DNA of 64,000 nucleotides from Siphonodentalium dalli (Eukaryota > Mollusca > Scaphopoda > Gadilida > Siphonodentaliidae): positions 71,465,980 through 71,529,979 of the forward strand of contig CP136063.1 in NCBI GenBank assembly GCA_032622095.1, in the 5' to 3' direction. This document shows positions 12,403-63,307 of the stretch, one piece after another (positions within the stretch are counted from its first letter, which is position 1; each line of letters starts with the position of its first letter). The notes under the pieces are model-generated. The model did no database searches and was not told the origin of the DNA. It was given only the letters and a program-made list of their open reading frames with translations. Position numbers and translations under genes: made by a program.

Positions 12403-12405
12403 TAA

Positions 12406-20782: not shown

Positions 20783-20885
20783 CTAATTTAATACGGCAAT
20801 AAGCAATCAGCTGCTGTCGCCAAATGGTATAACAAGGAGAAGCATCATGGGGGGCAATTCGTCTAGAAAATTATTTTCTATAGTA

Positions 20886-21091
20886 CACTGATGCCCTAAA
20901 TAATCGAATCCTTAACCACAGCAGAATTATGGGTAACTTTTCAGGATTTAGTCGGAAATATGTCTTGTTGCCATTCACCGGAAAGCTCTCACTGAGCAAC
21001 AAGACATATTTCTGACTAAATCCTGAAAAGTTACCCATAATTCTGCTGTGGTTAAGGAGTCGATTATTTAGGGCATTACCAGGCATTACTG
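20886..21091. mobile_element. pogo/Tc1-like foldback MITE, copy 5
   Basis: TA-flanked; ends CACTGATGCCCTAAATAAT and 'ggcattactg', with a short extra 'ggcattacca' at the right. It appears to have inserted into a CCCTTTCT-family element, because 21094-21300 starts inside that family and ends with 'agtatagaaaaggttaa'. Confidence 0.7.
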
Positions 21092-27841: not shown

Positions 27842-28082
27842 AACCCTTCCATGACTGGAGCAACCTAAAATTTTGCGAGAACCCTGTGACAATGCATTCT
27901 CTTATATACTGCGAGTCTCCCATAGAGCGCCTAGCATATATAAGAGAATGCATTGGCCTGACAATATTTACATTAAACTTGTAAGCCAGTGCATTCTCTT
28001 CAATATGCAAGGCTCCCTATAAGAGAATGCACTGGCACATGATATTTAATGCTGCACCAGCGCAGCTCCCGTAATGAAAGGT
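27842..28082. mobile_element. TTAA-flanked element, CCCTTYCATGA family
   Basis: TTAA lies at 27838-27841 and 28083-28086. The ends AACCCTTCCATGACTGGAGC and, reversed, ACCTTTCATTACGGGAGC are more decayed than in sister copies. Two hairpins are present, the second partly deleted (27983-28035). Confidence 0.7.
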
Positions 28083-28192
28083 TTAAAAGGATTTAAAGTC
28101 AAATCTTTTAATCCCAAATCATACACCTGTAAGAAATCTTAAGAGAGGTTCAATATTAGACAGCAATTCTTCTATTTACGGAGCAATCTTAC

Positions 28193-28960: not shown

Positions 28961-28962
28961 TA

Positions 28963-29176
28963 CAGTAATGCCCTAAATAATCGACTTCTTAACCATAGCA
29001 GAATTATGGGTTAATTTTTCAGGATTTAGTCGGAAATATGGCTTGTTGCCATTCATCGGAAAGCTCTCATTGAGAGCTTTCCGATGAATGGCAACAAGCC
29101 ATATTTCCGACTAAATCCTGAAAAATTACCCATAATTCTGCTATGGTTAAGAAGTTGATTATTTAGGGCATTACTG
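28963..29176. mobile_element. pogo/Tc1-like foldback MITE, copy 6
   Basis: TA-flanked, ends CAGTAATGCCCTAAATAAT and complement, with a near-perfect palindrome. Its right TA (29177-29178) lies 25 bp past exon E's donor. Confidence 0.8.
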
Positions 29177-29202
29177 TAAGTGTATGTATTTAGAAGCCTA
29201 AC

Positions 29203-29662: not shown

Positions 29663-30408
29663 TCTAATATATAAATGAGAATGTGTGAGTGTGTGTGTCG
29701 CTCTCTCTCTCTCTCTCTTTCAACTACTGGCCACATCGCACTGAAACTTGATATGAGGCATGTATTTCGGCTCTCTGGGTAACATGAGCTTAGTCATGAC
29801 TCCACATGCCGTCACATTTTGATTTTATGATGTCATGTCTGCTGGGAATGGCGGATCTCACTGAATTTTGTGTGGTCATGTATTTCGGCCCTCCGGATAA
29901 CATGGGCTGGTTCTCAACTCCGCTCGACATCGCCTTTATTTTTTACCTTATCAGAACAAAGTACCATAACAATAAACACTCTTTAATATTCTAGCCCTTT
30001 CATGACTGGAGCTTTCTGAAATTTTGCAAAACCCCTGTGCCAATGCATTCTCTTATATATGCGAGTGACCCATAGGGAACCTCGCATATATTCATTGGCC
30101 TAAAATATTTACCTTGATCTTGTAAGCAAGTGCATTCTCTTCAATATGCGAGGCTCACTATGGGAGACTCGCAAATATAAGAGAATGCACTGGCATAGGA
30201 TATTTAATGCTGCACCAGCGCAGCTCCCATCATCAAAGGGCTAGATATTCGACCGAGATGCAATCTCCTCAAAAGGCAAATGAAGTGCGAGAAAGGAGAT
30301 CTCATGAATAAATGTTTCATAATTGACATTCTTAATTTATTGTAACTGTTTCAATTTTTAATTTTGCCACTCTTGGCCTCACAGTGAAATGCCGGGTACA
30401 TCTGTTAG
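29663..30408 (+). mobile_element. Helitron-like element with a nested insertion
   Basis: Starts TCTAATATATAAATGAGAAT, followed by (GT)n and (CT)n. It ends 'atgccgggtaca' then 'tctgttag' before T. A TC start, an A/T-rich 5' end and a GC-rich 3' end with TTAG/CTAG and no target duplication are Helitron traits. No RepHel frame; non-autonomous. It is interrupted by the element at 29995-30240. Confidence 0.5.
29995..30240. mobile_element. CCCTTTCATGA-family element with CTAG flanks
   Basis: Ends CCCTTTCATGACTGGAGC and, reversed, CCCTTTGATGATGGGAGC, with two internal hairpins. The flanks are CTAG on both sides (29991-29994, 30241-30244) and not TTAA, unusual for the family. It is nested inside a Helitron-like element. 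Confidence 0.72.
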
Positions 30409-30536
30409 TATTTTAGAAATCTACTTAGAAAAAGGGAAAACATACTTCGGTCATGTTGTCAATCGAGATAGTCACTTCAAGTTTTGTTTTGGACAATTTT
30501 CTTGACCGTACATTTATAAACACACTTGCTACAAAC

Positions 30537-30737
30537 CTTGTTAGGCATATGTAAAGGAACACCTTTCTTCAGAAATGCCAAAGCTGTTTCAGGATGACCA
30601 TACTGTGCTGCTATATGCATCAGCGTGCTCCCATCTTTTGTTCTAGCAGCTATGGAAGCCCTGAACTTATCTATCAGCAGGTCCACTATATTAGAGTTAC
30701 CTCTCTCAGCAGCTATATGTAAGGCACTTCTATCATT
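30537..30737 (-). CDS. nompC: nompC exon D: two ankyrin repeats
   Basis: A 201-bp exon of 67 codons carrying two repeats. The first runs NDRSALHIAAERGNSNIVDL followed by LIDKFRASIAAR; the second runs TKDGSTLMHIAAQYGHPE and ends KKGVPLHMPNK. The DKF(R/K)ASI...RTKDGSTLMHIA junction and the LHMPNK end are among the most recognisable stretches of NOMPC. Acceptor CCATTTCAG, donor AAG|GTTTGT. It is twice the usual exon length, so an intron between the repeats was lost here or never gained. Confidence 0.95.
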
Positions 30738-30808
30738 CTGAAATGGAAACCATGATCTAAAAGCAAATTCTTTGTTGTTAGCAGTTTCACATAGGGAGCT
30801 TGGAATTA

Positions 30809-31405
30809 CAGTAATGTCCTAATCGACCCCTAAACCGCAGCAGAATTATGGGAAATTTTTCAGGATTTAGTCGGAATTATGGCTTGTTGCCATTCATTGG
30901 AAAGCTCTCACTTTCCAATGAATTGCAACAAGCCATATTTCCGACTAAATCCTGAAAAATTTCCCATAATTCTGCTGTGGTTAACCCTTTACCCAACAGA
31001 AGGGCCCTGTGCCAATGCATTCTCTTATATATGCGAGTCGACCATAGGTCGCCTCGCATATATAAGAGAATGCATTGGCTTAACACATTAAAAATTATAA
31101 TATTGTTAAAGAATTTAAGAAAAAATGGTAAAAAGTGTTAAAAAAAGATTTTGTGAGGCCAATGCATTCTCTTATATATGCGAGGCGACCTATGGTCGAC
31201 TCGCATATATAAGAGAATGCATTGGCACAGGGTATAACTGTAACTATCACAATGTGGTCAAGGAGCCGGTTCCAATGATATCCATATTTGTATGGTTTTA
31301 TTGAGACAGACCGAAGATATTTTAGGCTGTTGAAGCTTTATTTGGCCGGTTTTGGCCGGTTTGTTGGGTAAAGGGTTAAAGGGTCATATACTTCGGGCAT
31401 TGCTG
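30809..31405. mobile_element. pogo/Tc1-like foldback MITE, copy 7, split
   Basis: The left part (30809-30984) and right end (31376-31405) of a TA-flanked foldback element are separated by a TTAA element. Removing the insert and one TTAA restores 'gtggttaaagggtcatatac', the sequence expected from copy 4 at 14066. Confidence 0.8.
30985..31375. mobile_element. TTAA-flanked element, CCCTTTACCCAACA family (nested)
   Basis: TTAA lies at 30981-30984 and 31376-31379. 391 bp, with two long hairpins and 'ggccggttttggccgg'. It is inserted at a TTAA inside the pogo-like MITE, which proves the target duplication because the empty site is known from sister copies. Confidence 0.88.
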
Positions 31406-31869: not shown

Positions 31870-31925
31870 AAACCGCATTCCCTTATTGGACATACTAGTA
31901 CAACATTCACCGGTTATTGGATTAA

Positions 31926-32190
31926 CCCTGTCATGACGGCAGCTGCACTGGTACTGGTGCAGTATTAAAGAACCTGTGCCAGTGCAATCTCTTATATATG
32001 TGAGTCTTCCATAGGGAACATCACATATATAAGAGAATGCACGGGCTCACAAGGTCAAGGTAAATATTGTTAAGCCAATGTATTCTATTATATAGCCGAG
32101 GCTACCTATGGGAGACTCACATATATAGTATAATAGAATACATTGGCGCAGGGTTTTCGCAACATTTCAGGAAGCTCTAGTCATTGAGGG
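31926..32190. mobile_element. TTAA-flanked element, CCCTTTCATGA family
   Basis: TTAA at 31922-31925, TTAT at 32191. Ends CCCTGTCATGACGGCAGC and 'gaagctctagtcattgaggg', with two hairpins, the second with an extra 'tatagtataatag'. Decayed copy. Confidence 0.68.
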
Positions 32191-32518
32191 TTATCCCTCT
32201 TTGATAGACGTCAGACACATACATCTGAAACAAATGGCTGTGTATGTGTAGCAGCAATGGTCGTGTGAGTCAGGTGACTTTCACTGGCAACATAAACACA
32301 TATTTAATGTTACATATACATGTAACTGAACCCAACCTTTACAATTTTCCCATCTTGAGCTCATAGCTTTTAAAAGTATGGTATGTAGACTAAAGTCCAT
32401 AAGCATCAAGTATATAATATGGCAATGGCAAGTATAATCTTAAGAAAAGTACTGTAAGTACTGGTAATTATAAATATACATATACATGTATTCATAATTC
32501 AAATAATTATTTTCTCAC

Positions 32519-36423: not shown

Positions 36424-37107
36424 ACCTTTCATGATGGGGGCTTAGCTGGTGTAGCATTAAAGATACTGTGCCAGTGCATTCTCTTATATAAATGCGAGTC
36501 TCACATATATAAGAGAACGCACTGGCTTACAAGGTGAATGTAAATATTGTTAGGCCAATATATTCTCTTATATATGTGAGGCTCCTTGCGGGAGACTTGC
36601 ATATAGAATAGAATGCATTGCCACAGGGTTTTCCCAAAATTTCAGGAAGCGCCAGTCATGGAAGGGTTAAAGACCCAGTGCCAGTGTATTCTCTTATATA
36701 TGCGAGTCTCCCATAGGGAGCCTTGCATATATAAGAGAATGCACTGGCTTACCAGGTGAACGTAAATATTGTTAGGCCTTTGTATTCTCTTATATATGCG
36801 AGGCTCCCTGTAAGAGATGCACCTACATTAGAGAATACATTGCCACAGGGTTTTCACAAAATTTCAGGAAGCTAAGTCATGGAAGGGTTAAAGACCCTGT
36901 GCCAGTGTATTCTCCTATATATGTGAGTCTCTCATAGGGAGCCTCACATATATAGGAGAATGCACTGGCTTACAAGGTGAATGTAAATATTTTTAGGCCA
37001 ATGTATTCTCTTATATATGTGAGGCTCTCTATGGGAGACTCGCATATATATTAGAATGCATTGGCACGAGGTTTTCTCAATTTCAGGAAGCTCGATTCAT
37101 TGAAGTG
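36424..37107. mobile_element. Three tandem copies of a TTAA element
   Basis: Three CCCTTTCATGA-family units joined end to end (about 36424-36666, 36671-36886 and 36891-37107), each pair sharing a TTAA-containing 'gaagggttaaagaccc' junction; outer TTAA at 36420-36423 and 37108-37111. Each has two 'attctcttatata...gcgag' hairpins. The junction units lack the full left end. Confidence 0.7.
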
Positions 37108-37368
37108 TTAATCTGTTTTAATGGAGAAAATAACTCAGTTTACTTTTATAATATGAATAAATCATATTGTTCATGGAAAAATGTTGACCTGATGTATCAA
37201 ACTACAAAATGACATAAATGTATGTATTAAAATGATGTTACATTTGCAGAACACATGACACAGCTAGGGCCCCAAGAACATTTAAAAATATATATTATAA
37301 ATTAAGCCAAACAAAATAAATATTATGCCTCCCAGGTAAAATTTCCTCTAGCTACAGCTACAGCTATA

Positions 37369-37787
37369 TTGCAGAATGAGGTTCCCTGGCAGAGGGTGAA
37401 TTTAGTGGGCATAGCATCACTAAATTCACCCTCTGGGGACCTTATTTTGCATGGCCTCATCTGCTATGGGAGACATAGAATCTGATTGAAGTTCCCAAAT
37501 GATGAATATTGTGAAGTACCTCCATTGGGAACCTCGATTATGCAATGTGTCGTCTGCCAATTTGGGGATATAGAAAAACTAAACTAAAAAAGAAATAGAA
37601 TCTATGTGAAGAAGTTTCTATAGAACTTTGATAATAAAGAAACTTTCCAGATAAGATGAGGCCTAAGCAGAATGAGGTCCCCAGAGAGTGAAATTAGTAA
37701 TGCTAGCCCGCTATGCGGGATAGAGTCACTACATTCACCTTTTGGGGACCTCTTTCTGCAAATGACAGGCATACTAAACTCAGGCTT
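37369..37787. mobile_element. hAT-like family, copy 2 (left end lost)
   Basis: Same internal order as 6849-7253: palindromic 'cagaatgaggt' block, 'cctcatctgctatgggagac' segment, second palindromic block, then 'caaatgacaggcatact' and 'caggcttt'. The left terminus is replaced by 'ctacagctacagc', so no target duplication can be read. Confidence 0.65.
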
Positions 37788-38022: not shown

Positions 38023-38276
38023 CAAGCCTTGAAATAGGGTGTCTGTCATTTGCAGAATGAGGTCCCCAGAGGGTGAATTTAGTGATGCTACCCCGCATAG
38101 CGGGCTAGCATCACCAAATTCAACCTCTGGGAACCTCATTATGCTGAGGTGTAAGCAGAATGAGGTCCCCAGAGGGTGAATTTGGTGATGCTAGCCCGCT
38201 ATGCGGGGTAGCATCACTAAATTCACCCTCTGGGGACCTCATTCTGCAAATGACAGACACCCTATTTCAAGGCTTG
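38023..38276. mobile_element. hAT-like family, compact copy
   Basis: Near-perfect ends CAAGCCTTGAAATAGGGTGT and complement. Two complete palindromic blocks lie inside, with 'agcccgctatgcggg' centres. The flanks GAAACAGG (38015-38022) and GAAACCTG (38277-38284) agree at six of eight bases, compatible with an old 8-bp duplication. Confidence 0.7.
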
Positions 38277-38379: not shown

Positions 38380-39498
38380 GGACTCCGGTGGAATTGTTAT
38401 ATCTGGACATTTTTATACCCGGACCCCTGTGCTCCTCACATCTGTAGGATTGTTATATTTGATCTCCTGTGGTATTGTTATATTTGGACTAGCGTGGGAT
38501 TGTTATCTTCGGACCCCTGTGGGATTGTTATATTCAGAATTCTGTGGAATTGTTATACTCGGACCCTTGTGTGATTGTTATATTTGGACCCCTGTGGGAT
38601 TGTTATATTTGGACCCTGTGGGATTGTTATATTCGGGACCTGTGTGATTGTTATATTTGGACCCTGTGGGATTGTTATACTCGGACCCTTGTGGGATTGT
38701 TATATTTGGACCCTGTGGGATTGCTATATTTGGACCCTGTGGGATTGTTATATTTGGACCCTGTGGGATTGTTATATTCGGGACCTGTGTGATTGTTATA
38801 TTTGGACCCTGTGGGATTGTTATATTCGGGACCTGTGTGATTTTTATACTCAGACACTTGTGTGATTGTTATATTCGGGACCTGTGTGATTGTTATATTT
38901 GGACCCTGTGGGATTGTTATATTCGGGACCTGTGGGATTGTTATATTTGGACCCTGTGGGATTGTTATATTCGGACCCCTGTGTGATTGTTATATTCGGG
39001 ACCTGTGGGATTGTTATACACGGACCCTTGTGGGATTGTTATATTTGGACCCTGTGGGATTGTTATATTCGGGACCTGTGTGATTGTTATATTCGGACCC
39101 CTGTGGGATTGTTATACTCAGACCCTTGTGTGATTGTTATATTTGGACCCATTTGGGAATGTTATATTTGGACCCCTGTGGGATTGTTATATTTGGACCA
39201 ATTTGGGAATGTTATATTCAGACCCTGTGTGATTGTTATATTCAGACCCCAGTGGGATTGTGATATTCGGACCCCTGTGGGATTGTCATATTCGGACCCC
39301 TGTGGGATTGTTATTTTCGGACCCCTGCATGTGGGAATGTCATAGTCGGGACCCCTGTTGTATTGTTATATTCGGACCAGTGTGGGATTGTCATAGTCGG
39401 ACCTCCGTGCATGGGATTGTAATTTTCTGACCCCTCCATGTGGGATTGTTGTAATCAGACCCCTGGGTAATTGTTATATTCATGTGGGATTGTTAAAT
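38380..39498. repeat. 24-25 bp intronic minisatellite, about 45 units
   Basis: Units of 'ggaccctgtgggattgttat' plus 'attt' or 'attc'. The last unit, 'catgtgggattgttaaatac', runs into the exon A donor. Long open frames on both strands (up to 151 codons, LWDCYIRDL-type) come from the 24-bp period and are not genes. Confidence 0.85.
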
Positions 39499-39500
39499 AC

Positions 39501-39605
39501 CTTCTTCTTGACTTTGAGTTGTTCTTCTTTGGACAGATGAAGTAACTCACGACAAACTGTAACATTACCAACTTCCGCAGCCATGAACAGTGGTATTGAT
39601 CCATC
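39501..39605 (-). CDS. nompC: nompC exon A: one ankyrin repeat
   Basis: This is the first visible exon in gene order, 35 codons in phase 0. It starts DGSIPLFMAAEVGN, continues with a CRELL helix, and ends in a charged EEQLKVKKK tail in place of the usual repeat end. The acceptor is CTTTTTCAG and the donor AAG|GTATTT, a poor match to GTAAGT. The same DGSIPLF...CRELL...EQL pattern is typical of one NOMPC repeat. A 24-25 bp minisatellite begins directly at the donor, and a pogo-like foldback element lies 146 bp upstream. The preceding exon was not found anywhere up to 64000. Confidence 0.88.
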
Positions 39606-39750
39606 CTGAAAAAGAGCCACAGCAATGGAATCAGTGCCATTGTTAAAACATTGATTCTTCGTGTAAAGTGTCACATCCGGCCTGATGTACATTGCACAAA
39701 GAGTACAAGAGCACCACACAGAGTTGGAAATCTTCCAATCGAGGCAGGTA

Positions 39751-39930
39751 CAATAATGCCCTAAATAATCGACTCCTTAACCACAGCAGAATTATGGGTA
39801 ACTTTTCAGGATTTAGTCTCGGAAATATGGCTTTTCGATTAATGGCAACAAGCCATATTTCCAACTAAATCCTGAAAAATTACCCATAATTCTGCTGTGG
39901 TTAACGAGTCGATAATTTAGGGCATTACTG
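39751..39930. mobile_element. pogo/Tc1-like foldback MITE, copy 8
   Basis: TA-flanked, ends CAATAATGCCCTAAATAAT and 'gggcattactg'. The apex is partly deleted. It lies in the intron upstream of exon A. Confidence 0.75.
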
Positions 39931-40182
39931 TAAGGTTAGAATTTTCCAACAAAAGGGAGAGTTAATGGAATTGGGGTCTGATTCAAAAGGGGGGTGGGGG
40001 TTGCAGTTAAAAAATATAACTTGATAACCTCATTCCAAATGGTGACCCTCTAGTTACCTCCCTAGTCACAACTAATTTCATCAACAACAATCCTAGATGG
40101 GGAACCTTCAACAATTTAAATTTTGATTCTATCGAAATTTTGAAAATGTCAGTAAGTCAGATGTCATATCTGTGTTGGTCAT

Positions 40183-40440: not shown

Positions 40441-43400
40441 CGGTGAAACAAGGCAGCGGCTATTCGCCATCGGATGGCAAATAGCGATTATACCGATATG
40501 CGCTATTTGCCATCCGATGGTATTTTAAAGAAAAGAAAACATATCATAGCATCACAACACACACTTATAATGATGACTCATACCGGCTTCCTGGTAATTA
40601 GGCCCAGTTGACCCTCGGCTGACCACCTACAGATATCCTACAGAAATCGACCAATTTCGAAGGAAATTTTGTATAGTTTGAGTATTTAGTGGCACAAGCT
40701 GGCGCTATATGCCCACATAATCACCATTCCTACCTGCCTTACCGAAAATCCAGACCAGTTGACACTCGGTTGACCACCTACAGGTATCCTGGGGGGTTGG
40801 CAAATAATATATCGACCAATCCCACCTACAGATATATTTTGAAGGAAATTTCGTATAGTTTGAGTATTTAGTGGCACAAGCTGTCGATATATGCCCACAT
40901 AATCACCATTCCTACCCGCCTTACAGAAAACCCGGACCAGTTGACCCTCGGTTGACCACCTACAGATATCCTGGGGGGATGGCAAATAAGAAATCGACCA
41001 ATTTTGAAGGAAATTTCGTATAGTTTGAGTATTTAGTGGCACAAGCTGTCGCTATATGCCCACATAATCACCATTCCTACCCGCCTTACAGAAAACCCGG
41101 ACCAGTTGACCCTCGGTTGACCACCTACAGATATCCTGGGGGGATGGCAAATAAGAAATCGACCAATTTTGAAGGAAATTTTGTATAGTTTGAGTATTTA
41201 GTGGCACAAGCCGTCGCTATATGCCCACATAATCACCATTCCTATCCGCCTTACCGAAAACCCAGACCAGTTGACACTCGGTTGACCACCTACAGATATC
41301 CTGGGGGATGGCAAATAAGAAATCGACCAATTTTGAAGGAATTTCGTATAGTTTGATTGAGTATTTAGTGGCACAAGCCATCGCTATATGCCCACATAAT
41401 CACCATTCCTACCTGCCTTACCGAAAATCCGGACCAGTTGACACTCGGTTGACCACCTACAGGTATCCTGGGGGGTTGGCAAATAATATATCGACCAATT
41501 TTGAAGGAAATTTCGTATAGTTTGAGTATTTAGTGGCACAAGCCGTCGCTATATGCCCACATAATCACCATTCCTACCCGCCTTACCGAAAACCCAGACC
41601 AGTTGACACTCGGTTGACCACCTACAGATATCCTGGGGGGATGGCAAATAAGAAATCGACCAATTTCGAAGGAAATTTCGTATAGTTTGAGTATTTAGTG
41701 GCACAAGCTGTCGATATATGCCCACATAATCACCATTCCTACCCGCCTTACAGAAAACCTGGACCAGTTGACCCTCGGTTGACCACCTACAGATATCCTG
41801 GGGGGATGGCAAATAAGAAATCGACCAATTTTGAAGGAAATTTCGTATAGTTTGAGTTTTTAGTGGCACAAGCCGTCGCTATATGCCCACATAATCACCA
41901 TTCCTACCCGCCTTACAGAAAACCTGGACCAGTTGACACTCGGTTGACCACCTACAGATATCCTGGGGGATGGCAAATAAGAAATCGACCAATTTTGAAG
42001 GAAATTTTGTATAGTTTGAATGAGTATTTAGTGGCACAAGCTGGCGATATATGCCCACATAATCACCATTCCTACCTGCTTTACCGAAAATCAGGACCAG
42101 TTGACACTCGGTTGACCACCTACAGGTATCATGGGGGGTTGGCAAATAATATATCGACCAATTTTGAAGGAAATTTTGTATAGTTTGAATGAGTATTTAG
42201 TGGCACAAGCTGGCGATATATGCCCACATAATCACCATTCCTACCTGCTTTACCGAAAATCAGGACCAGTTGACACTCGGTTGACCACCTACAGGTATCA
42301 TGGGGGGTTGGCAAATAATATATCGACCAATTTTGAAGGAAATTTTGTATAGTTTGAATGAGTATTTAGTGGCACAAGCTGGCGATATATGCCCACATAA
42401 TCACCATTCCTACCCGCCTTACCGAAAATCAGGACCAGTTGACACTCGGTTGACCACCTACAGGTATCATGGGGGGTTGGCAAATAATATATCGACCAAT
42501 TTTGAAGGAAATTTCGTATAGTTTGAGTATTTAGTGGCACAAGCCATCGCTATATGCCCACATAATCACCATTCCTACCCGCCTTACTGAAAACCCAGAC
42601 CAGTTGACACTCGGTTGACCACCTACAGATATCCTGGGGGGATGGCAAATAAGAAATCGACCAATTTTGAAGGAAATTTCGTATAGTTTGAGTATTTAGT
42701 GGCACAAGCTGTCGATATATGCCCACATAATCACCATTCCTACCCGCCTTACAGAAAACCCGGACCAGTTGACCCTCGGTTGACCACCTACAGATATCCT
42801 GGGGGGATGGCAAATAAGAAATCGACCAATTTTGAAGGAAATTTCGTATAGTTTGAGTATTTAGTGGCACAAGCTGTCGCTATATGCCCACATAATCACC
42901 ATTCCTACCCGCCTTACAGAAAACCCGGACCAGTTGACACTCGGTTGACCACCTACAGATATCCTGGGGGATGGCAAATAAGAAATCGACCAATTTTGAA
43001 GGAAATTTTGTATAGTTTGAGTATTTAGTGGCACAAGCTGTCTCTATATGCCCACATAATCACCATTCCTACCCGCCTTACAGAAAACCCGGACCAGTTG
43101 ACACTCGGTTGACCACCTACAGATATCCTGGGGGATGGCAAATAAGAAATCGACCAATTTTGAAGGAAATTTTGTATAGTTTGAGTATTTAGTGGCACAA
43201 GCTGGCGCTATATGCCCACATAATCACCATTCCTACCCGCCTTACCGAAAATCCGGACCAGTTGACACTCGGTTGACCACCTACAGGTATCATGGGGGGT
43301 TGGCAAATAATATATCAACCAATTTTGAAGGAAATTTCGTATAGTTTGAGTATTTAGTGGCACAAGCCGTCGCTATATGCCCACATAATCACCATTCCTA

Positions 43401-46400
43401 CCCGCCTTACAGAAAACCTGGACCAGTTGACACTCGGTTGACCACCTACAGATATCCTGGGGGATGGCAAATAAGAAATCGACCAATTTTGAAGGAAATT
43501 TTGTATAGTTTGAATGAGTATTTAGTGGCACAAGCTGGCGATATATGCCCACATAATCACCATTCCTACCTGCTTTACCGAAAATCAGGACCAGTTGACA
43601 CTCGGTTGACCACCTACAGGTATCATGGGGGGTTGGCAAATAATATATCGACCAATTTTGAAGGAAATTTTGTATAGTTTGAATGAGTATTTAGTGGCAC
43701 AAGCTGGCGATATATGCCCACATAATCACCATTCCTACCTGCTTTACCGAAAATCAGGACCAGTTGACACTCGGTTGACCACCTACAGGTATCATGGGGG
43801 GTTGGCAAATAATATATCGACCAATTTTGAAGGAAATTTCGTATAGTTTGAGTATTTAGTGGCACAAGCCATCGCTATATGCCCACATAATCACCATTCC
43901 TACCCGCCTTACTGAAAACCCAGACCAGTTGACACTCGGTTGACCACCTACAGATATCATGGGGGGATGGCAAATAAGAAATCGACCAATTTTGAAGGAA
44001 ATTTCGTATAGTTTGAGTATTTAGTGGCACAAGCTGTCGATATATGCCCACATAATCACCATTCCTACCCGCCTTACAGAAAACCCGGACCAGTTGACCC
44101 TCGGTTGACCACCTACAGATATCCTGGGGGGATGGCAAATAAGAAATCGACCAATTTTGAAGGAAATTTCGTATAGTTTGAGTATTTAGTGGCACAAGCT
44201 GTCGCTATATGCCCACATAATCACCATTCCTACCCGCCTTACAGAAAACCCGGACCAGTTGACACTCGGTTGACCACCTACAGATATCCTGGGGGATGGC
44301 AAATAAGAAATCGACCAATTTTGAAGGAAATTTTGTATAGTTTGAGTATTTAGTGGCACAAGCTGTCTCTATATGCCCACATAATCACCATTCCTACCCG
44401 CCTTACAGAAAACCCGGACCAGTTGACACTCGGTTGACCACCTACAGATATCCTGGGGGATGGCAAATAAGAAATCGACCAATTTTGAAGGAAATTTTGT
44501 ATAGTTTGAGTATTTAGTGGCACAAGCTGGCGCTATATGCCCACATAATCACCATTCCTACCCGCCTTACCGAAAATCCGGACCAGTTGACACTCGGTTG
44601 ACCACCTACAGGTATCATGGGGGGTTGGCAAATAATATATCAACCAATTTTGAAGGAAATTTCATATAGTTTGAGTATTTAGTGGCACAAGCCGTCGCTA
44701 TATGCCCACATAATCACCATTCCTACCCGCCTTACCGAAAACCCAGACCAGTTGACACTCGGTTGACCACCTACAGATATCCTGGGGGGATGGCAAATAA
44801 GAAATCGACCAATTTCGAAGGAAATTTCGTATAGTTTGAGTATTTAGTGGCACAAGCTGTCGATATATGCCCACATAATCACCATTCCTACCCGCCTTAC
44901 AGAAAACCTGGACCAGTTGACCCTCGGTTGACCACCTACAGATATCCTGGGGGGATGGCAAATAAGAAATCGACCAATTTTGAAGGAAATTTCGTATAGT
45001 TTGAGTATTTAGTGGCACAAGCCGTCGCTATATGCCCACATAATCACCATTCCTACCCGCCTTACAGAAAACCTGGACCAGTTGACACTCGGTTGACCAC
45101 CTACAGGTATCATGGGGGGTTGGCAAATAATATATCGACCAATTTTGAAGGAAATTTCGTATAGTTTGAGTATTTAGTGGCACAAGCCATCGCTATATGC
45201 CCACATAATCACCATTCCTACCCGCCTTACTGAAAACCCAGACCAGTTGACACTCGGTTGACCACCTACAGATATCCTGGGGGGATGGCAAATAAGAAAT
45301 CGACCAATTTTGATGGAAATTTCGTATAGTTTGAGTATTTAGTGGCACAAGCTGTCGATATATGCCCACATAATCACCATTCCTACCCGCCTTACAGAAA
45401 ACCCGGACCAGTTGACCCTCGGTTGACCACCTACAGATATCCTGGGGGGATGGCAAATAAGAAATCGACCAATTTTGAAGGAAATTTCGTATAGTTTGAG
45501 TATTTAGTGGCACAAGCTGTCGCTATATGCCCACATAATCACCATTCCTACCCGCCTTACAGAAAACCCGGACCAGTTGACACTCGGTTGACCACCTACA
45601 GATATCCTGGGGGATGGCAAATAAGAAATCGACCAATTTTGAAGGAAATTTTGTATAGTTTGAGTATTTAGTGGCACAAGCTGGCGCTATATGCCCACAT
45701 AATCACCATTCCTACCCGCCTTACCGAAAATCCGGACCAGTTGACACTCGGTTGACCACCTACAGGTATCATGGGGGGTTGGCAAATAATATATCAACCA
45801 ATTTTGAAGGAAATTTCATATAGTTTGAGTATTTAGTGGCACAAGCCGTCGCTATATGCCCACATAATCACCATTCCTACCCGCCTTACCGAAAACCCAG
45901 ACCAGTTGACACTCGGTTGACCACCTACAGATATCCTGGGGGGATGGCAAATAAGAAATCGACCAATTTCGAAGGAAATTTCGTATAGTTTGAGTATTTA
46001 GTGGCACAAGCTGTCGATATATGCCCACATAATCACCATTCCTACCCGCCTTACAGAAAACCTGGACCAGTTGACCCTCGGTTGACCACCTACAGATATC
46101 CTGGGGGGATGGCAAATAAGAAATCGACCAATTTTGAAGGAAATTTCGTATAGTTTGAGTATTTAGTGGCACAAGCCGTCGCTATATGCCCACATAATCA
46201 CCATTCCTACCCGCCTTACAGAAAACCTGGACCGGTTGACACTCGGTTGACCACCTACAGATATCCTGGGGGATGGCAAATAAGAAATCGACCAATTTTG
46301 AAGGAAATTTTGTATAGTTTGAATGAGTATTTAGTGGCACAAGCTGTCGATATATGCCCACATAATCACCATTCCTACCCGCCTTACAGAAAATCAGGAC

Positions 46401-48415
46401 CAGTTGACACTCGGTTGACCACCTACAGGTATCATGGGGGGTTGGCAAATAATATATCGACCAATTTTGAAGGAAATTTCGTATAGTTTGAGTATTTAGT
46501 GGCACAAGCCATCGCTATATGCCCACATAATCACCATTCCTACCCGCCTTACAGAAAACCCGGACCAGTTGACACTCGGTTGACCACCTACATATATCCT
46601 GGGGGATGGCAAATAAGAAATCGACCAATTTTGAAGGAAATTTTGTATAGTTTGAGTATTTAGTGGCACAAGCCGTCGCTATATGCCCACATAATCACCA
46701 TTCCTACCCGCCTTACAGAAAACCCGGACCAGTTGACACTCGGTTGACCACCTACAGATATCCTGGGGGATGGCAAATAAGAAATCGACCAATTTTGTAT
46801 AGTTTGAGTATTTAGTGGCACAAGCTGGCGCTATATGCCCACATAATCACCATTCCTACCCGCCTTACCGAAAATCCGGACCAGTTGACAGTTTGACACT
46901 CGGTTGACCACCTACAGGTATCATGGGGGGTTGGCAAATAATATATCAACCAATTTTGAAGGAAATTTTGTATAGTTTGAGTATTTAGTGGCACAAGCCG
47001 TCGCTATATGCCCACATAATCACCATTCCTACCCGCCTTACCGAAAACCCAGACCAGTTGACACTCGGTTGACCACCTACAGATATCCTGGGGGATGGCA
47101 AATAAGAAATCGACCAATTTTGAAGGAAATTTTGTATAGTTTGAGTATTTAGTGGCACAAGCTGTCTCTATATGCCCACATAATCACCATTCCTACCCGC
47201 CTTACAGAAAACCCGGACCAGTTGACACTCGGTTGACCACCTACAGATATCCTGGGGGATGGCAAATAAGAAATCGACCAATTTTGAAGGAAATTTTGTA
47301 TAGTTTGAGTATTTAGTGGCACAAGCTGGCACTATATGCCCACATAATCACCATTCCTACCCGCCTTACCGAAAATCCGGACCAGTTGACACTCGGTTGA
47401 CCACCTACAGGTATCATGGGGGGTTGGCAAATAATATATCAACCAATTTTGAAGGAAATTTCATATAGTTTGAGTATTTAGTGGCACAAGCTGTCGCTAT
47501 ATGCCCACATAATCACCATTCCTACCCGCCTTACCGAAAACCCGGACCAGTTGACACTTGGTTGACCACCTACAGATATCCTGGGGGGATGGCAAATAAG
47601 AAATCGACCAATTTCGAAGGAAATTTCGTATAGTTTGAGTATTTAGTGGCACAAGCTGTCGATATATGCCCACATAATCACCATTCCTACTCGCCTTACA
47701 GAAAACCTGGACCAGTTGACCCTCGGTTGACCACCTACAGGTATCATGGGGGGTTGGCAAATAATATATCAACCAATTTTGAAGGAAATTTCGTATAGTT
47801 TGAGTATTTAGTGGCACAAGCCGTCGCTATATGCCCACATAATCACCATTCCTACCCGCCTTACCGAAAACCCAGACCAGTTGACACTCGGTTGACCACC
47901 TACAGATATCCTGGGGGATGGCAAATAAGAAATTGACCAATTTTGAAGGAAATTTTGTATAGTTTGAGTATTTAGTGGCACAAGCTGGCGCTATATGCCC
48001 ACATAATCACCATTCCTACCCGCCTTACAGAAAACCCGGACCAGTTGACACTCGGTTGACCACCTACAGATATCCTGGGGGATGGCAAATAAGAAATCGA
48101 CCAATTTTGAAGGAAATTTTGTATAGTTTGAGTATTTAGTGGCACAAGCTGGCGCTATATGCCCACATAATCACCATTCCTACCAGCCTTACAGAAAACC
48201 GGACCAGTTGACCACCTACAGATATATTGGGGGGATGGCAAATAAGAAATCAGCCTAATTATCAGGAAGGCGGCAGGAATCATCATTATTAGAGCGTATT
48301 GTGATGACAATATATGTTTTCTTTTCTTTAAAATACCATCGGATGGCAAATAGCGCATATCAGTAGAATCGCTATTTGCCATCCGATGGCGAATAGACAC
48401 TTCCGTGAAACAAGG
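40441..48415. mobile_element. 8-kb element: long inverted ends around a satellite
   Basis: The left arm (about 40460-40602) and the reverse complement of the right arm (about 48253-48396) match over about 145 bp at roughly 85% by eye. Both start CTATTCGCCATCGGATGGC and each contains its own hairpin ('ccatcggatggcaaatagcg' with 'cgctatttgccatccgatgg'). Outside the arms lies the direct repeat CGGTGAAACAAGG (40441-40453) and CCGTGAAACAAGG (48403-48415), 12 of 13 identical, a likely target duplication. The interior is almost wholly the 165-bp satellite. No transposase frame. The superfamily is undetermined; a 9-13 bp duplication would suit Mutator-like elements. Confidence 0.7.
40601..48252. repeat. 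165-bp satellite array, about 46 monomers
   Basis: Head-to-tail monomers of 164-169 bp, each with 'gagtatttagtggcacaagc', 'tatatgcccacataatcacc', 'cagttgacactcggttgacc' and 'atcgaccaattttgaaggaa'. Subtypes differ by 'gaaaacc' or 'gaaaatc', 'atcctggggg' or 'atcatggggg', and 'tttgagtat' or 'tttgaatgagtat'. Identical multi-monomer blocks recur (41863-42183 with 43357-43677; 42298-42540 with 43623-43865), showing higher-order structure. The frames of 60-118 codons on both strands arise because 165 is a multiple of three. Confidence 0.93.
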
Positions 48416-52639: not shown

Positions 52640-55358
52640 CCCCCTGCCCTATTAGAAGTCTTGAACACACCACGAACTGAAAGAATATGATCTCAATATT
52701 AAGAATCATGTAACTACAAAGGACAGTTACATAAGGAAATACACAATGTTTATGGATGGGTTTGTTCCCGAAATAGTGTGGCACTTTACAAAACGAGGCT
52801 GCGTGGCAAATATGAAGGGCGAATTTTCAATTGTTTTTGAGAACACTCTACCCGATCCCGATTTAAAGACTCGAACACAATACGAAATGAAGCTATATGC
52901 TCTCTATATTAAATGAGAGTGTGACTGGAATGTAGTACTATCAGAGAATACATCATTTGTATGGGTGGGTTGTGCCTGTGTCGCTTTACACAAAGTGGCT
53001 GATAAATAAGAAAGACGAATTTGCTATGTTTTGAGGACACCCCTACACAATTGAAGTGTTATAGCTGAACAAACCACGAACTGAAATGATTGCTGTAAAT
53101 ATTGACTGAGGATGTGGGCAAATTATAGTAATATCGGGACATACATAATGTTGATGGATGGGTTGGTTGGTTCCCGAAAGCCTTTAGCACTTTTAGCACT
53201 TCGGATGGCAAACGCCAAAGGCGAATATTTGTGTGTGTGGGACCCCTTTGTAAGCCCATTTATACTCTTGAACACACCATGCGCCGAATATATATGCTTT
53301 TATTATTAACTCACAGTGTGAACGAAAGGTAGTGCTATCAGGGATAATACAATTTATATGGGTAGTTTGGTTCCCAAAATGCTAGGGTACTTTACAAAAG
53401 GCGGCTGGCAAATACCAAGGCTGAATATTTTCTTTGAGCACCCTACCCCATTTAAAGTCTTAAACACACCAATGGATGGATATGTTCTCAATATTAACTG
53501 AGGTGTGGACAAATGGTAGATAATTCAGGAAATATACATCTTCAGTGGGTGGGTTGGTTTCCGAATGTCTGGGACAATTTACAAAAAGTGGCTAGCCAAG
53601 AGAAAGGGCGAATTCTCACTGTTTTGGGTACCCATAACCCTTCTAAACTCTTTAGCACACACTGAGCCGAATCTATATGCTCTGAATATTAACTGTGTGT
53701 GAACGAAAGGTAGTTCTGGCATGTATTATGTACAATTTGTATGGGTGGTTTGTTTCCCGAAATCCTGGAGCACTTTACAAAAGGCAGCTGGCAAATATGA
53801 AATGTGATTTTTTTTTAGGCCACACCACCCCATTTGAAGTCTTGAACACACAATGAACCGAATGGATATGCTCCCAATATAAACTGAGCGTGTAGACAAT
53901 TGGACGCTATATCAAGAGTATAGTATATCAGGGTCTTGAATGGCTGGGTCACTTTACAAAAAGCTGTTGGTGAAAGAGAAAAGCGATTACTCACTGTTTC
54001 GGGGGGACCCCATTAACCCATTTAATATCTTGATCACAGCATGAACTGAAGTTATATTCTCCCATATTTAGCTGAGTGCGTGATCGAAAGGTATTGCTAT
54101 CATGGAATTATTAATTGATATGGGTGATTTGGTTCCCCCAAAATCCTGGAACAGCTGGCAAACACGAAAGGCGAATTTTCTATGTGTTGAGGACCCCACT
54201 ATCCCACATGAAGTCTTAAACAAATGATATGTTCTCAATATTAACTGAAGTTGTGGACAAATGGGAGTATTATCTGGAAATACGAATCTTGTTATGGATG
54301 AGATGGTTCCCGAAAGCGGTCGGCAAACGAAAGGGCTAAATTTCACTGTCTCAGGGGACTCCAATCCCTATTTGAAGTCTTGAACACACCACTAGCTCAA
54401 GGCATATGCTATCAATATCACCAGAGATTGTGGCCGAATGGCTGTTCTGTCAGAAAAGATGCAATGCTCTCGAGAGCCCACCGTTCGTGAGAACACCGTG
54501 GCACCTTACACAAAGCAGATGACAAACGATGAAGGCGAATTTTAAGGGACCCCTACCCCATGTAAACCATTGAACCTACCACGAACTGAATGGACGTGCC
54601 CTCAAGGTCAAACGATGATCTGGACAAATGGCTATTCTATCAAGAAATACACAATTGTTAAAGATGGGTTGGTACCCGACAGTCAGGGACACTTTACAAA
54701 AAGCGACTGGAAAATAAATAATGCGATTTATCAAAGTTTGTATTACACCCTTCCCACTTTGAAGACTAGAACACAACACGAACTGGAACGATATTATCAT
54801 TGACTGAGTGTATGGACAATGGGGAGTTAGTTGTACAAGGACGTATGTACACAATGTAAATAGATGGATTGGGTTCAGAAAGCATGCGCACTTAACGAAA
54901 AATGGCTGGAAAATAAGAAAGGCAAAATTTTGAGGACCCCTACTTTATTTGAAGTCTTGGAAGACACCACATGGTGAAATGATATGACCTCAATATTAAC
55001 TGAGGGCTTGACCAAAGGTTAGTTTTTATCAGGATATACATATGTGTTGGTTCCCGAAAATCTGCACCATGTGGCACTCCACAACAAGCGGCTGGCAAAT
55101 GTTCACTGTAGTATGTACCCCTACCCTATTTGATTTCTTGAACACATCATGTACTGAAGGGATTATGATTTTAATATCAACATATATTGTGGCCGAAACT
55201 ATGCGATATATAAGGTTGTATTGGTTTCCGACAGCATGTGACACTTTACAAAAAGCGGCTGGCAAATAAAAAAAATGCAATTTTAACTGTTTATGTGACA
55301 CATACGCTATTTGAAATCATGAAAACACCACGAACTCGAGGGACATGCTCCCAGTTTA
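52640..55358 (+). repeat. About 190-bp tandem array, 14-15 units
   Basis: Degenerate units marked by 'tcttgaacacaccacgaact', 'ctcaatattaactgag', 'atgggttggttcccgaaa' and 'ggcactttacaaaaagcggc'. The first phrase recurs about every 190 bp from 52662 to 55317. The array is cut at 55359 by Helitron-like units and resumes at 58114-58300. Confidence 0.75.
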
Positions 55359-58113
55359 TCTATTATATATTTTGGGAAAACTGTCTGTCTGTGTGTCTGT
55401 CTGTCTGTTCGCGATGAACTCGAAAACGGCCGAGCCGATTTCGATGAAACTTGGTATGTGGGTGTAATTTCGGCTGGGGAGTGGCATGGGCCTGTTAATT
55501 TGCCCGTGCGACGTGACCTTGACCTTGAAATCGGCTCATTCAAGGTCAAACGCCCGAGTATCACGGGATTTCGATGAAAATTAGTGTCTGGGGATACTTT
55601 CGCATGGGGAGTGTCGTAAGCCTATTCGTTTGCCCGTGCGACGTGACCTTGACCTTGAAATCGGGTCAATTCAAGGTCAAATCGCGAATTTTGTCCACTT
55701 TTGTCCACTGAGTGTTTTGGACGGGTCGAGTCGTGACCCCGACCTGACCTTGACCTTCAAAATGATCAATTCGAGGTCAAATCGGGTAAAACCGGATGGA
55801 TTTCGACGGGTACTTTTGTCGGGTACTTTTGTCTGGGCAGTGTTTTGGACGGTTCAAATCGTGACCCCACCTGACATTGACCTTCAAAATGGACAATTCA
55901 AGGTCAAATCGCGCAATTCGCCGAAAAGCAGAGGGGAAACAGCCCGGACGAAGTCGGGTCCACCAGCTATCTCATATATATTTTGAAGACCTCTGTTTGT
56001 CTGTGTGTCTGTATGTTTGTTTGTCTGTCATTTATACAAATCTACGATTCTCGACCGATCGGGACGAAACTTGGTACGTGTGTGTAGTTTGACCAGGATG
56101 TCGACGTTGTCGTATTGGCGAGCCCGTGCGGCGCCCGCTTCGCGCATGCGCAGACGAGATCTCGGAAACGGGTGGAGCTATCGACTTGAAATTTGCTATG
56201 TGAATGTATCTTGCCCCGGATACGAATTTTATCGGGTCGCCGAGCCCGTGCGACGCCAGCTTCGCGCATGCGCAGACGAGATCTCGGAAACGGGTGGAGC
56301 TATCGACTTGAAATTTGCTCTGTGAATGTATCTTGCCCCGGATGCGAATTTTATCGGGTCGCCGAGCCCGTGCGACGCCAGCTTCGCGCATGCGCAGACC
56401 AGATCTCGGAAACGGGTGGAGCTATCGACTTGAAATTTGGTTTTTGAATAGCCCGGACAACGTCGGGCTCATCGGCTAGTCTCATATATATTTTGAAGAC
56501 CTCTGTCTGTCTGTTTGTTTGTCATTAATACAAATCTACGATTCTCGACCGATCGGGACGAAACTTGGTACGTGTATGTAGTTTGACCAGGCGGTCGTCG
56601 TTGTCGTATTGGCGAGCCCGTGCGGCGCCCGCTTCGCGCATGCGCAGACGAGATCTCGGAAACGGGTGGAGCTATCGACTTGAAATTTGCTATGCGAATG
56701 TATCTTGCCCCGGATACGAATTTTATCGGGTCGCCGAGCCCGTGCGACGCCAGCTTCGCGCATGCGCAGACGAGATCTCGGAAACGGGTGGAGCTATCGA
56801 CTTTAAATTTGGTACGTGTGAATGTATCTTGCCCCGGATACGAATTTTATCGGGTCGCCGAGCCCGTGCGGCGCCCGCTTCGCGCATGCGCAGACGAGAT
56901 CTCGGAAACGGGTGGAGCTATCGACTTGAAATTTGGTATGTGAATGTATCTTGCCCCGGATACGAATTTTATCGGGTCGCCGAGCCCGTGCGACGCCAGC
57001 TTCGCGCATGCGCAGACGAGATCTCGAAAACGGGTAGAGCTATCGACTTGAAATTTGGTTTTCTTGAATAGCCCGGACAACGTCGGGCTGGGTAGAGCTA
57101 TCGACTTGAAATTTGGTTTTTGAATAGCCCGGACAACGTCGGGCTCATCGGCTAGTCTATTATATATTTTGGGAAATCTGTCTGTGTGTCTGTTCGCGAT
57201 GGACTCGAAAACGGCCGAGCCGAATTCGATGAAACTTGGTATGTGGGGGTACTTTCGATCGTGGAGTGGCATGGGCCTGTTAATTTGCCCGTGCGACGTG
57301 ACATTGACCTTGAAATCGGCTCATTCAAGGTCAAACGCCCGAGTATCACGGGATTTCGATGAAAATTAGTGTCTGGGGATACTTTCGTATGGGGAGTGTC
57401 GTAAGCCTATTCGTTTGCCCGTGCGACGTGACCTTGACCTTGAAATCGGGTCAATTCAAGGTCAAATCGCGAATTTTGATGGGATTTCGACGAAATTTGA
57501 TACGTGGGGTTACTTTTGACCACTGAGTGTTTTGGACGGGTCGCGTCGAAACACGACCTGACCTTGACCTTCAAAATGATCAATTCGAGGTCAAATCGGG
57601 TAAAACCGGATGGATTTCGATGGGTACTTTTGTCGGGTACTTTTGTCCGGGCAGTGTTTTGGACGGTTCAAATCGTGATCCCACCTGACCTTGACCTTCA
57701 AAATGGACAATTCAAGGTCAAATCGCGCAATTCGCAGAAAAGCAGAGGGGAAACAGCCCGGACGAAGTCGGGTCCACCAGCTATCTATTATATATTTTGG
57801 AAGATCTGTCTGTGTGTGTGAGTGTGTGAGGTGTGTGTGTGAGAGAGATAGAGAGAGGGGGAGGGTGTGTGTGTGTCTGTTCCGACCTGACCTTGACCTT
57901 CAAAATGATCAATTCGAGGTCAAATCGGGTAAAACCGGATGGATTTCGACGGGTACTTTTGTCGGGTACTTTTGTCCGGGCAGTGTTTTGGACGGGTCAA
58001 ATCGTGACCCCACCTGACCTTGACCTTCAAAATGGACAATTCAAGGTCAAATCGCGCAATTCGCCGAAAAGCAGAGGGGAAACAGCCCGGACGAAGTCGG
58101 GTCCACCTGCTAG
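55359..58113 (+). mobile_element. Five head-to-tail Helitron-like units
   Basis: Units start at 55359, 55970, 56480, 57156 and 57784, each with TCTATTATATATTTTGG or TCTCATATATATTTTGAAG and a TCTGTCTG tract. Each ends in a short hairpin ('gcccggacgaagtcggg' or 'gcccggacaacgtcgggct') and 'ccaccagcta' or 'atcggctag'. TC at the 5' end, a 3' hairpin and a CTAG end before T are Helitron features. Two interior types occur: 'cgacgtgaccttgaccttga'-based (units 1, 4 and 5) and a 124-bp tandem with 'cgcgcatgcgcagacgagat' (units 2 and 3). No replicase frame; open frames up to 168 codons are from the 124-bp repeat. Confidence 0.7.
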
Positions 58114-58300
58114 TACGATATATAAGGTTGTATTGGTTTCCGACAGCATGTGACACTTTAAAAAAGCGGCTGGCAAATAACAAAAATTAAATTGTAACTG
58201 TTTATGTGACAATTACGCTATTTTAAGCCATGAAAACACCACGAACTCGATGGACATGCTCCCAGTTTAACTGAGTCTGTGGACATAGGGTAGTTCTATC
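58114..58300 (+). repeat. Continuation of the 190-bp array
   Basis: 58116-58267 is a close copy of 55207-55357 ('cgatatataaggttgtattg', 'ccgacagcatgtgacacttt', 'ggacatgctcccagttta') and then continues as a normal unit with 'actgagtctgtggacat'. Confidence 0.7.
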
Positions 58301-60207: not shown

Positions 60208-60457
60208 TCTTCTAATTTAATAGTATCAATGTTGGCTTCGTTCCACTGATAATAAAGTTAGAAAAAAATGTGACGCATAATCTATAGACTAAAAATTACC
60301 AAACAATACAAAGTTAATGAGATAAGTAATACTCTTCTAATTTAATAGTATCAATGTTGGCTTCGTTCCACTGATAATAAAGTTAGAAAAAAATGTGACG
60401 CATAATCTATAGACTAAAAATTACCAAACAATACAAAGTTAATGAGATAAGTAATAC
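60208..60457 (+). repeat. Perfect 125-bp tandem duplication
   Basis: 60208-60332 and 60333-60457 appear identical ('tcttctaatttaatagtatc' to 'gagataagtaatac'). Either a very recent duplication or an assembly artefact. Confidence 0.85.
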
Positions 60458-61225: not shown

Positions 61226-62570
61226 CAGAATAATAACGAACGTTAAGTTAAAGCCGCACCATTAAGAAACATCAATTGGCCCTTTGTCAGTTATAAGAGT
61301 TTCAATCAATCAGGAAGTTGGAACAAAAATTCTGGTCAGTTTCGCGATTTGTTAAATATCTGAGATTCACGAGTTGCCTATATTCGTTTTGTTCTTCAAT
61401 TAAGCTATATATAATCACATATGCACGTACTGAAAATATAGTATTTCTAAACATGAACCAGTAATGATATGTAAAATATATAGCACCGCCTGGACTATAA
61501 CATGTCAAAACACAGTCTTCTTTGAAATTATTGCATTTAAAGAAACTCTGCAATGTATATTCAGTTCTTCAAGAGCACGCGTACAATGCACCCAGGGTGT
61601 TTGCGATGAAAAAGGAAGTCAAACAAAGTGTTTATCTTAAAGCTCGTAAGATTAGCAATAAAACCACATAGTATCCAATAATCCATAGGTCTTTACCAGA
61701 TAGACTGGTTCCGTGTGTGTGCTCATTCTGAAGCCGGTTCTGAATTAGATTCAATCTATCGACGAAGTGTGGAAATATTTGTTCGGAACACAGTCAGATA
61801 CACAATTCAAGAGTGCAGATCAAATAATTCTGACGAGCGTTATTACATCAATTGAAGAGTCAATGTTAGCGTCAGTATTGTTCCACAAACAGGTGCAAGC
61901 TGCAAAACAGACTCCTCTTTACGCTATGTCTGACCGCTGCCGGCATGTGTATTTTCTGAATTAAATCTAACATTTTTTATTGAAGTGTTTCAGTTACAAT
62001 TAATTCTGGCTTGATCTAGACAATCTTCAAATGAATATGGACAGTTCAGTTTCTCAGAATAATGCTGAATGAATTGTAACCTACACAAGTCTCAAATAAA
62101 TAAATGAGTGATTTATTCACATTGTGTGCAGGTGCTGGCAGCGGTAAGTCCTGCTTATAAAACAGGGGACTGAACTAAGAATGGAGCGTGAATAGATGTG
62201 CAGCCTGATGTCTGTATTGCATGGCCGGGAATCTACGTCATAAATTTGCTCAAAAATGGCGGCAATATATGTCTCACGTCGAAGTTAGAGAACACAAGAA
62301 CACCGCATTCGGCAAACCTCGTCAGATTCCATCACCGTTTCAGAATGAAGAACACCGGACAACACACTATGTAATCAAGTAACGGCGTAGAAGCAATTCT
62401 ACGGATTAATGTCCAACGGGCAACGGCGGTGATCGAGTTACAACGACGTTTAACGGCAAACAACTGTGGCGATTAATTGTTACTATTTTTAGAATAATCG
62501 AGGCGAGGAGTTTTGTGACACGTTATTTTAAGGTGTGTATTTATCTCTCGCTTTTGTTTATATATATACA
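61226..62570. other. Sequence with nothing recognised
   Basis: No exon of nompC and no element ends seen. A plus-strand GAGSGKSCL string at 62131-62157 is followed by a stop and is treated as chance. Confidence 0.4.
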
Positions 62571-62572
62571 AC

Positions 62573-63034
62573 TAGCCGATGAGCCCGACGTTGTCCGTGC
62601 TATTCAAAAACCAAATTTCAAGTCGATAGCTCCACCCGTTTCCGAGATCTGGTCTTTGCATGCATTTCAAGTCGATAGCTCCACCCGTTTCCGAGATCTC
62701 GTCTGCGCTTGCGCGAAGATGACGTCGCACGGGCTCGGCGACCCGATAAAATTCGTATCCGGGGCAAGATACATTCACATAGCAAATTTCAAGCCGATAG
62801 CTCCACCCGTTTCCAAGATCTCGTCTGCGCATGCGCGAAGCGGGCGCCGCACGGGCTCGCCAATACGACAACGTCCACCGCCTGGTCAAACTACACACAC
62901 GTACCAAGTTTCGTCCCGATCGGTCGAGAATCGTAGATTTGTATCAATGACAGACAAACATACAGACAGACAGACAAACAGAGGTCTTCAAAATATATAT
63001 GAGACTAGCCGATGAGCCCGACGTTGTCCGGGCT
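62573..63034 (-). mobile_element. Helitron-like unit of the 124-bp type, plus fragment
   Basis: Minus-strand unit: 5' TCTCATATATATTTTGAAG at 63004 downwards, TCTGTCTG tract, 124-bp type core with 'cgcatgcgcagacgagat', 3' hairpin and CTAG at 62573. A truncated 3' end of a second unit (63005-63034) abuts its 5' end, again head to tail. Confidence 0.65.
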
Positions 63035-63307
63035 ACAACCTACGTGTGTTTGATTGGGAGCCGGTTCCCCTATGTATACATAGCTGATCACATGGGACAC
63101 CGTCTCTCACACAAATAACAACAAAACTTTCATTCCTGCAAAACCATCGACTTGAATTCATCAGCAGCTGAACGCCAGGGGAGAGGAGCTTCACTAAGTT
63201 TCGTAACTTGTGCTCCGATCCCCTGTGCACCCACAACATCATCCATATATTCTGTTTGTAAATTATTCCATGTATTTGTGGGTCACAATAAATATGTTCA
63301 AACAAAC
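63035..63307. other. Spacer, nothing recognised
   Basis: A short hairpin 'gagccggttcccctatgtat' region aside, no feature is supported. Confidence 0.4.

Follow-up and report, generated by a model that had tools for sequence, protein, structure and literature searches.

How did a satellite array of about 8 kb come to lie within what is likely a gene intron? This question is raised by positions 40441-48415 of a 64,000-nucleotide stretch of DNA from the scaphopod Siphonodentalium dalli (assembly GCA_032622095.1, contig CP136063.1, positions 71,465,980 to 71,529,979 of the forward strand), referred to hereafter as the window. The birth of satellite arrays and their scattering into gene-rich DNA are debated, and this one locus seems to join a source (the arm of an element), a product (a 46-copy array) and an insertion scar. 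We think it likely that the locus records a single insertion of a non-autonomous, foldback-type transposon with terminal inverted repeats (TIRs) and a satellite arm on one side only, most likely of the Mutator/foldback kind. An earlier note, made from the sequence alone, had given the same coordinates for the unit, and these are right. Its parts are listed below.

40441..40453, + strand: left copy of the direct repeat (target site duplication, TSD), 11 bp exact, 12/13
40454..40603, + strand: left inverted arm (aligned 40449-40603), 88% complementary to the right arm
40467..40520, + strand: left subterminal hairpin, stem 40467-40486 / 40501-40520, z -6.9, 0/200 shuffles
40552..40603, + strand: monomer-like inner end of the left arm, phase 23-74, continuing in register into the array, weak on local score
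40604..48252, + strand: 165-bp monomer array, 46 anchor hits, 45 complete units, one orientation
48253..48305, - strand: monomer-like inner end of the right arm (inverted), phase 22-74 or 23-75 (tie), score 18
48253..48402, - strand: right inverted arm (aligned 48253-48407), 88% complementary to the left arm
48336..48389, - strand: right subterminal hairpin, stem 48336-48355 / 48370-48389, z -9.3, 0/200 shuffles
48403..48415, + strand: right copy of the direct repeat, 11 bp exact, 12/13

The two arms form an inverted pair of 155 nt (40449-40603 and 48253-48407) in which 138 of 156 aligned columns are identical. These aligned spans overlap the direct repeats by a few bases, and without the overlap the arms measure about 150 bp. 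The inverted pair described in the earlier note stands; the length given there was about 145 bp. Identity is uneven along the arms: the outer part (85 bp after the first six bases) is identical at 83 of 85 positions, compared to 48 of 60 in the inner part (Fisher p 0.0008). As had also been noticed before, each arm contains a hairpin. Both hairpins have a perfect stem of 20 bp, and in neither case did any of 200 shuffles fold as well. The loops are asymmetric and, apart from 2 differences counted by eye, the right loop is the left one inverted, so the whole hairpin belongs to the inverted repeat.

A direct repeat flanks the arms, with one copy at 40441-40453 and the other at 48403-48415. Eleven consecutive bp are exact and 12 of 13 match overall, the same count as had been reported. 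None of 20,000 shuffles of the two 31-base flanks gave a direct repeat of at least 11, a post hoc figure because the flanks were picked owing to the finding. Since arm and direct repeat share a few bases, three lengths of the duplication are possible: 9 bp (exact, with arms that start GG), 11 bp (exact, with the arms starting two bases out of step) or 13 bp (12/13). The element between the direct repeats is about 7.95 kb long. Two features by which a TIR (cut-and-paste) transposon is recognized, terminal inverted repeats and a target site duplication, are both present, and the arms, hairpins and flanking duplication support the view that they make up one inserted unit enclosing the array. Target site duplications are 8-11 bp in the Mutator superfamily (Mutator-like elements, MULE) and 2 bp (TA) in Tc1/mariner. 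Among superfamilies the 9-13 bp duplication seems to fit Mutator best, although the superfamily is unproven.

The arms and the array appear to be related in sequence. The inner 52-53 bp of each arm was compared with the monomer at all 165 phases and on both strands, giving 330 placements. For the left arm, phase 23-74 ranked first; for the right arm, phases 22-74 and 23-75 tied for first place, on the same strand as the left. Where the left arm ends the array opens directly, at phase 76, so arm and array share one register. The right inner arm scored 18 against the monomer, a value equalled by none of 2000 shuffles and by none of 670 other segments of the window (segment maximum 13), and for the whole right arm only 4 of 1000 shuffles were as good. 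Phase ranking, together with homology to the right arm, suggests that the left arm is linked to the monomer as well. Foldback elements have long inverted ends with internal repeats, unequal in number; here the right inner arm is clearly monomer-like, the left one looks so by phase ranking but is not significant by local score, and the array stands on the left only. In addition, the arm hairpin and the monomer have the 12-mer GGATGGCAAATA in common (a shared word as long arose in 2 of 1000 dinucleotide shuffles). Its core, GATGGCAAATA, occurs in 30 of the 45 monomers, so that most monomers of the array carry the core of a motif also present in the end hairpin of the element.

Judged from these sequence comparisons, the arms appear to end in a diverged part-monomer, inverted on the right, and the array would have grown from that part on the left alone. 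The earlier note had suggested that the array may be, or have been, the cargo of a mobile element. Its single inserted unit agrees with our results, but foreign cargo is probably the wrong word, because the arms hold a diverged piece of the monomer in matching phase and the repeat looks like the element's own.

When the array was cut at a conserved 20-base anchor, allowing up to 3 mismatches, 46 hits were obtained. These delimit 45 complete units of 152-182 bp, arranged head-to-tail on the + strand, with inverted arms abutting both edges of the array, in agreement with the earlier count of about 46 monomers between the arms. Tandem Repeats Finder (TRF) called 44.7 copies of 165 bp at 40836-48212. 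The monomer consensus is 165 bp and mean pairwise identity is 93.4%. At a threshold of 0.999 the 45 complete units comprise 31 monomer types, and 14 units are exact copies of another. Longer stretches are also duplicated: blocks of 711, 704 and 487 bp recur exactly inside the array at a spacing of 7-9 monomers. With such exact copies of units and blocks, the array need not have been complete when it landed. On the assumption that the outer arms did not differ at insertion and have since changed at the same pace as the monomers, their 2 differences in 85 positions predict about 17 differences in a 711-bp block, although the lower confidence limit is only 2. The exact blocks may therefore have been copied after insertion, a suggestion that falls short of proof. 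The inner arms, which differ in 12 of 60 columns, were probably unlike each other already before insertion. Divergence at the edges of the array is mixed. Unit 1 is 85.7% identical to the consensus and the last complete unit 98.2%, the partial edge units match it at 72 of 90 and 117 of 134 positions, and some inner units are low too (89.6-90.9%). Should the host genome contain further copies that differ in monomer number, the family would allow growth to be measured directly, both before insertion and after it.

The sequence itself shows the anatomy, the flanking repeat, the phase shared by arms and monomers and the exact block copies; from this one locus we infer mobility, a helper transposase, the superfamily and an order of events. 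Each end of the element carries a near-identical outer part with the long hairpin and an inner part that would hold a piece of the 165-bp repeat. Unequal exchange or replication slippage would have raised this inner repeat to about 46 copies on the left, and the right arm would have retained just an inverted third of one monomer copy. A transposase from another element would have bound both ends, moved the unit and left the 9-13 bp duplication, and part of the growth of the array would have come later, in place.

Several observations weigh against a foldback insertion of this kind. Only one locus is known, and no second copy of the arm lies within the 64-kb window, which is a weak test of whether the arms occur at no other locus. 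The outermost six bases of the arms (CAGCGG on the left, AAGTGT on the right) match at only 3 of 6 positions. By local score, similarity to the monomer was not significant for the left inner arm (707 of 2000 shuffles as good) or for the whole left arm (492 of 1000), and the two arms, being homologous, are not independent witnesses. Conservation of GGATGGCAAATA among the monomers is not above average (80 of 165 windows are less conserved), so there is no sign of selection on the 12-mer. The element contains no transposase-sized frame, the longest ATG-started frame being 75 codons, and a Pfam scan of 6 of its 14 long stop-to-stop frames reached no cut-off. These 14 frames, of 100 aa or more and up to 121 aa, are made of monomers. 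The best sub-threshold Pfam matches, both in one frame, were to DUF5641 (E 0.00075, 20.1 vs 23.1 bits) and DUF4817 (E 0.0013, 18.8 vs 22.6).

Other scans were made of the arm, the monomer and the window. Because the collections genome_contigs and viral_contigs consist of prokaryotic and viral sequences and the scans were for exact words, a lack of hits in them says little: the arm palindrome had no match in genome_contigs, and two monomer words had none in viral_contigs, one of the two being absent from genome_contigs also. A 16-base arm word was found in 3 viral contigs and was taken as chance, the similarity amounting to the word and at most 6 bases more; one of these contigs has an additional 23-base match of 87% elsewhere. 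Within the window, Rfam gave no match at the gathering threshold and ARAGORN no tRNA gene. A literature search by sequence words returned matches that were judged unrelated from the title and the start of the abstract.

The array might instead be a one-armed mobile satellite, in which the whole array of about 8 kb moved as one unit between two short arms and full-length arrays were planted straight into introns, the repeats perhaps providing extra transposase-binding sites. We regard this as unlikely.

A capture model, which is the version of the earlier note and resembles that proposed for the Xenopus element miDNA4, holds that the satellite array existed first, was captured by a TIR element and then travelled with it. 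The array does fill the element, as such a model would have it, but arms and monomers that share sequence in matching phase are not predicted unless the arms later copied the edge of the array, and we consider capture distinctly unlikely.

Less probable again is an origin without transposition, in which the left flank and the edge of the array were copied in inverted orientation to the right by a local rearrangement and the direct repeat is coincidental. The finding of one locus alone is in keeping with this, and if the flank had been duplicated in inverted form together with the first part-monomer, both arms would likewise contain monomer sequence. What it leaves unexplained is an 11-bp direct repeat exactly outside the arms, given the shuffling result above, and the end of arm homology at that repeat.

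Helentron elements and Helentron-associated interspersed elements (HINEs) commonly carry arrays of 160-170 bp units in the Pacific oyster. The monomer length and internal array are similar here, and HINEs also possess inverted repeats in subterminal position, with a palindrome at the 3' end (PMC7492417). In the excerpts of that survey drawn on here, oyster HINEs have no indicated target site duplication and insert in TT, whereas a 9-13 bp duplication is present at our locus; their subterminal repeats are 11-12 bp with a palindrome in the right flank, whereas our arms are about 150 bp with hairpins at both ends (PMC7492417). Neither combination, insertion in TT with no duplication or short subterminal repeats with a right-flank palindrome, was found, making an element of this type highly improbable. 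An assembly artefact that misplaced or lengthened the array is scarcely credible, since exact repeats of up to 711 bp can mislead assemblers but the arms and flanks are orderly and the array varies along its length (31 monomer types among 45 units); misassembly may have altered the copy number, but hardly the anatomy.

The element likely lies in an intron of a NOMPC/TRPN-like gene, as judged from matches of three minus-strand frames to Drosophila NOMPC. The frame at 39483-39776 resembles residues 232-263 of 5vkq_A (whole-sequence E 3.8e-7, best stretch i-E 0.06), and the frames at 30480-30818 and 6595-6822 resemble residues 332-404 and 690-758 of 5vkq, respectively. The exon nearest the element on its downstream side is as follows.

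39510..39605 (about), - strand: ankyrin-repeat exon of the NOMPC/TRPN-like host gene, matching 5vkq_A residues 232-263, downstream of the element in the direction of the gene

The order of the matches fits a gene that runs from right to left, so about 230 codons are expected upstream, on the far side of the element. One scan of the window with one consensus seed found no upstream NOMPC exons, and the ankyrin-like frames listed reach 39.8 kb. The intron setting that had been proposed earlier is thus supported by the downstream exon and lacks its upstream counterpart in that scan. A 25-bp array of about 42 copies (38442-39481), without inverted flanks, adjoins the exon at 39.5 kb.

Tandem arrays (TRF) and palindromic elements abound in the window. 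As a control for the inverted arms, the flanks of 15 hand-merged TRF arrays of the window with a span of about 190 bp or more were compared; the right flank of one of these (63336-63983) ends at the window edge. Inverted flanks were present in 2 of the 15, the array described here and that at 38052-38247 (1.9 copies), which is itself part of a 254-bp palindrome. This set supersedes an earlier control of 8 hand-picked arrays, in which 1 of 8 was positive. The joined flanks of the element match no uninterrupted (empty) site within the window.

The 254-bp palindrome (38023-38276) is near-perfect, with arms 98% complementary and 8 nt between them. A family of palindromes of about 150-220 bp is scattered through the gene, for example at 39749-39932, and its members are 87-99% self-complementary among the matches listed. 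A palindromic element of about 221 bp forms a 2.8-copy tandem at 36457-37111 and has single relatives elsewhere among the matches listed; this is perhaps the early tandem growth of a unit like a miniature inverted-repeat transposable element (MITE). Relatives of the three, among the matches listed, are at the following positions.

37657-37771, 6827-6964: relatives of the 254-bp palindrome
809-1002, 12729-12950, 13050-13268, 14061-14225, 20884-21079, 28961-29178, 30807-30984: relatives of the 39749-39932 palindrome
6343-6593, 12400-12671, 27842-28086, 29992-30243, 31921-32193: relatives of the palindromic element of about 221 bp

On the other side of the element, arrays of 122-130 bp units occupy 55204-58272 and 62560-64000. 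Among the matches listed, the second block is an inverted relative of the first, and the first lies between direct repeats of about 158 bp (55204-55361 and 58116-58272, 92%). Positions 60208-60457 hold a perfect 125-bp tandem duplication (100%), which is either recent or an assembly duplicate.

The element was compared with known systems as far as excerpts of their published descriptions extend. In oyster, arrays with a unit length near 165 bp are often carried by Helentron/HINE elements (PMC7492417, PMC8268682). The Cg_HINE and pearl elements of bivalves are alike in that their internal arrays are often near 165 bp, some have palindromes close to junctions, and they occur in genes (PMC7492417, PMC5139131). 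The oyster HINEs differ in their Helitron-type ends, in that no TSD was found in the survey, and in that the longest array there has 29.3 monomers (PMC7492417). The Donax element DTC84 is described as a MITE that carries up to six short repeats and has a palindrome close to its junction (PMC5139131), and the title of a paper on tandem repeat-containing MITEs in the clam Donax trunculus is cited in PMC12628747. Two oyster satellites, CgiSat28 (182 bp) and CgiSat23 (1295 bp), are annotated as DNA/MuDR by Repbase match (PMC8268682), so Mutator-linked satellites are not new in bivalves in themselves; the likeness to our array considered here is the link to Mutator given by their table entries. A literature search, limited in extent and not a claim of absence, found no TIR/TSD foldback element with such an array for a mollusc.

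Outside the molluscs, miDNA4 is a Xenopus MITE with TIRs and an internal satellite of one to many monomers (PMC12628747, PMC9659126). It differs in being assigned to Tc1/mariner and in that it is said to have captured its repeat (PMC12628747, PMC9659126). Galileo, of the P superfamily, has long TIRs with internal tandem repeats (PMC3688188, PMC3573991), and these repeats hold further transposase-binding sites (PMC3688188). Galileo has a P-type transposase, a protein not seen in our element; the likeness is one of DNA structure.

Two foldback elements appear to match the anatomy described here closely. In Tetris, a non-autonomous foldback element of Drosophila virilis, the TIRs consist of an outer flanking domain and tandem repeats of about 220 bp, and TSDs are 8-10 bp (PMC4079207). 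The repeats have 37 bp (about 80%) in common with the outer TIR domain, and the authors propose that they may derive from a duplicated part of it; on DNA fibres, long arrays of the repeat lie between two outer domains (PMC4079207). Tetris has repeats in both TIRs around a middle domain, whereas our array is one-sided with no middle domain, and our arms are far shorter with a hairpin in each, the comparison being one of described structure. Tm1, a Mutator/foldback element of root-knot nematodes, makes a TSD of mostly 9 bp (8-10) and has unequal numbers of repeats in its TIRs (PMC3169594). Its arms are on average 93% identical, with short, asymmetric, non-inverted 7-bp tips outside the inverted repeat (PMC3169594). 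Tm1 differs in its repeat unit of about 14 bp, in that some members encode a transposase, and in the size of the elements considered, 1080 and 2593 bp (PMC3169594). Our array looks as if the element's own arm had expanded on one side, as described for Tetris and in a manner that resembles Tm1. A multiplied transposon end is an uncommon origin for a satellite, yet one that has already been described.

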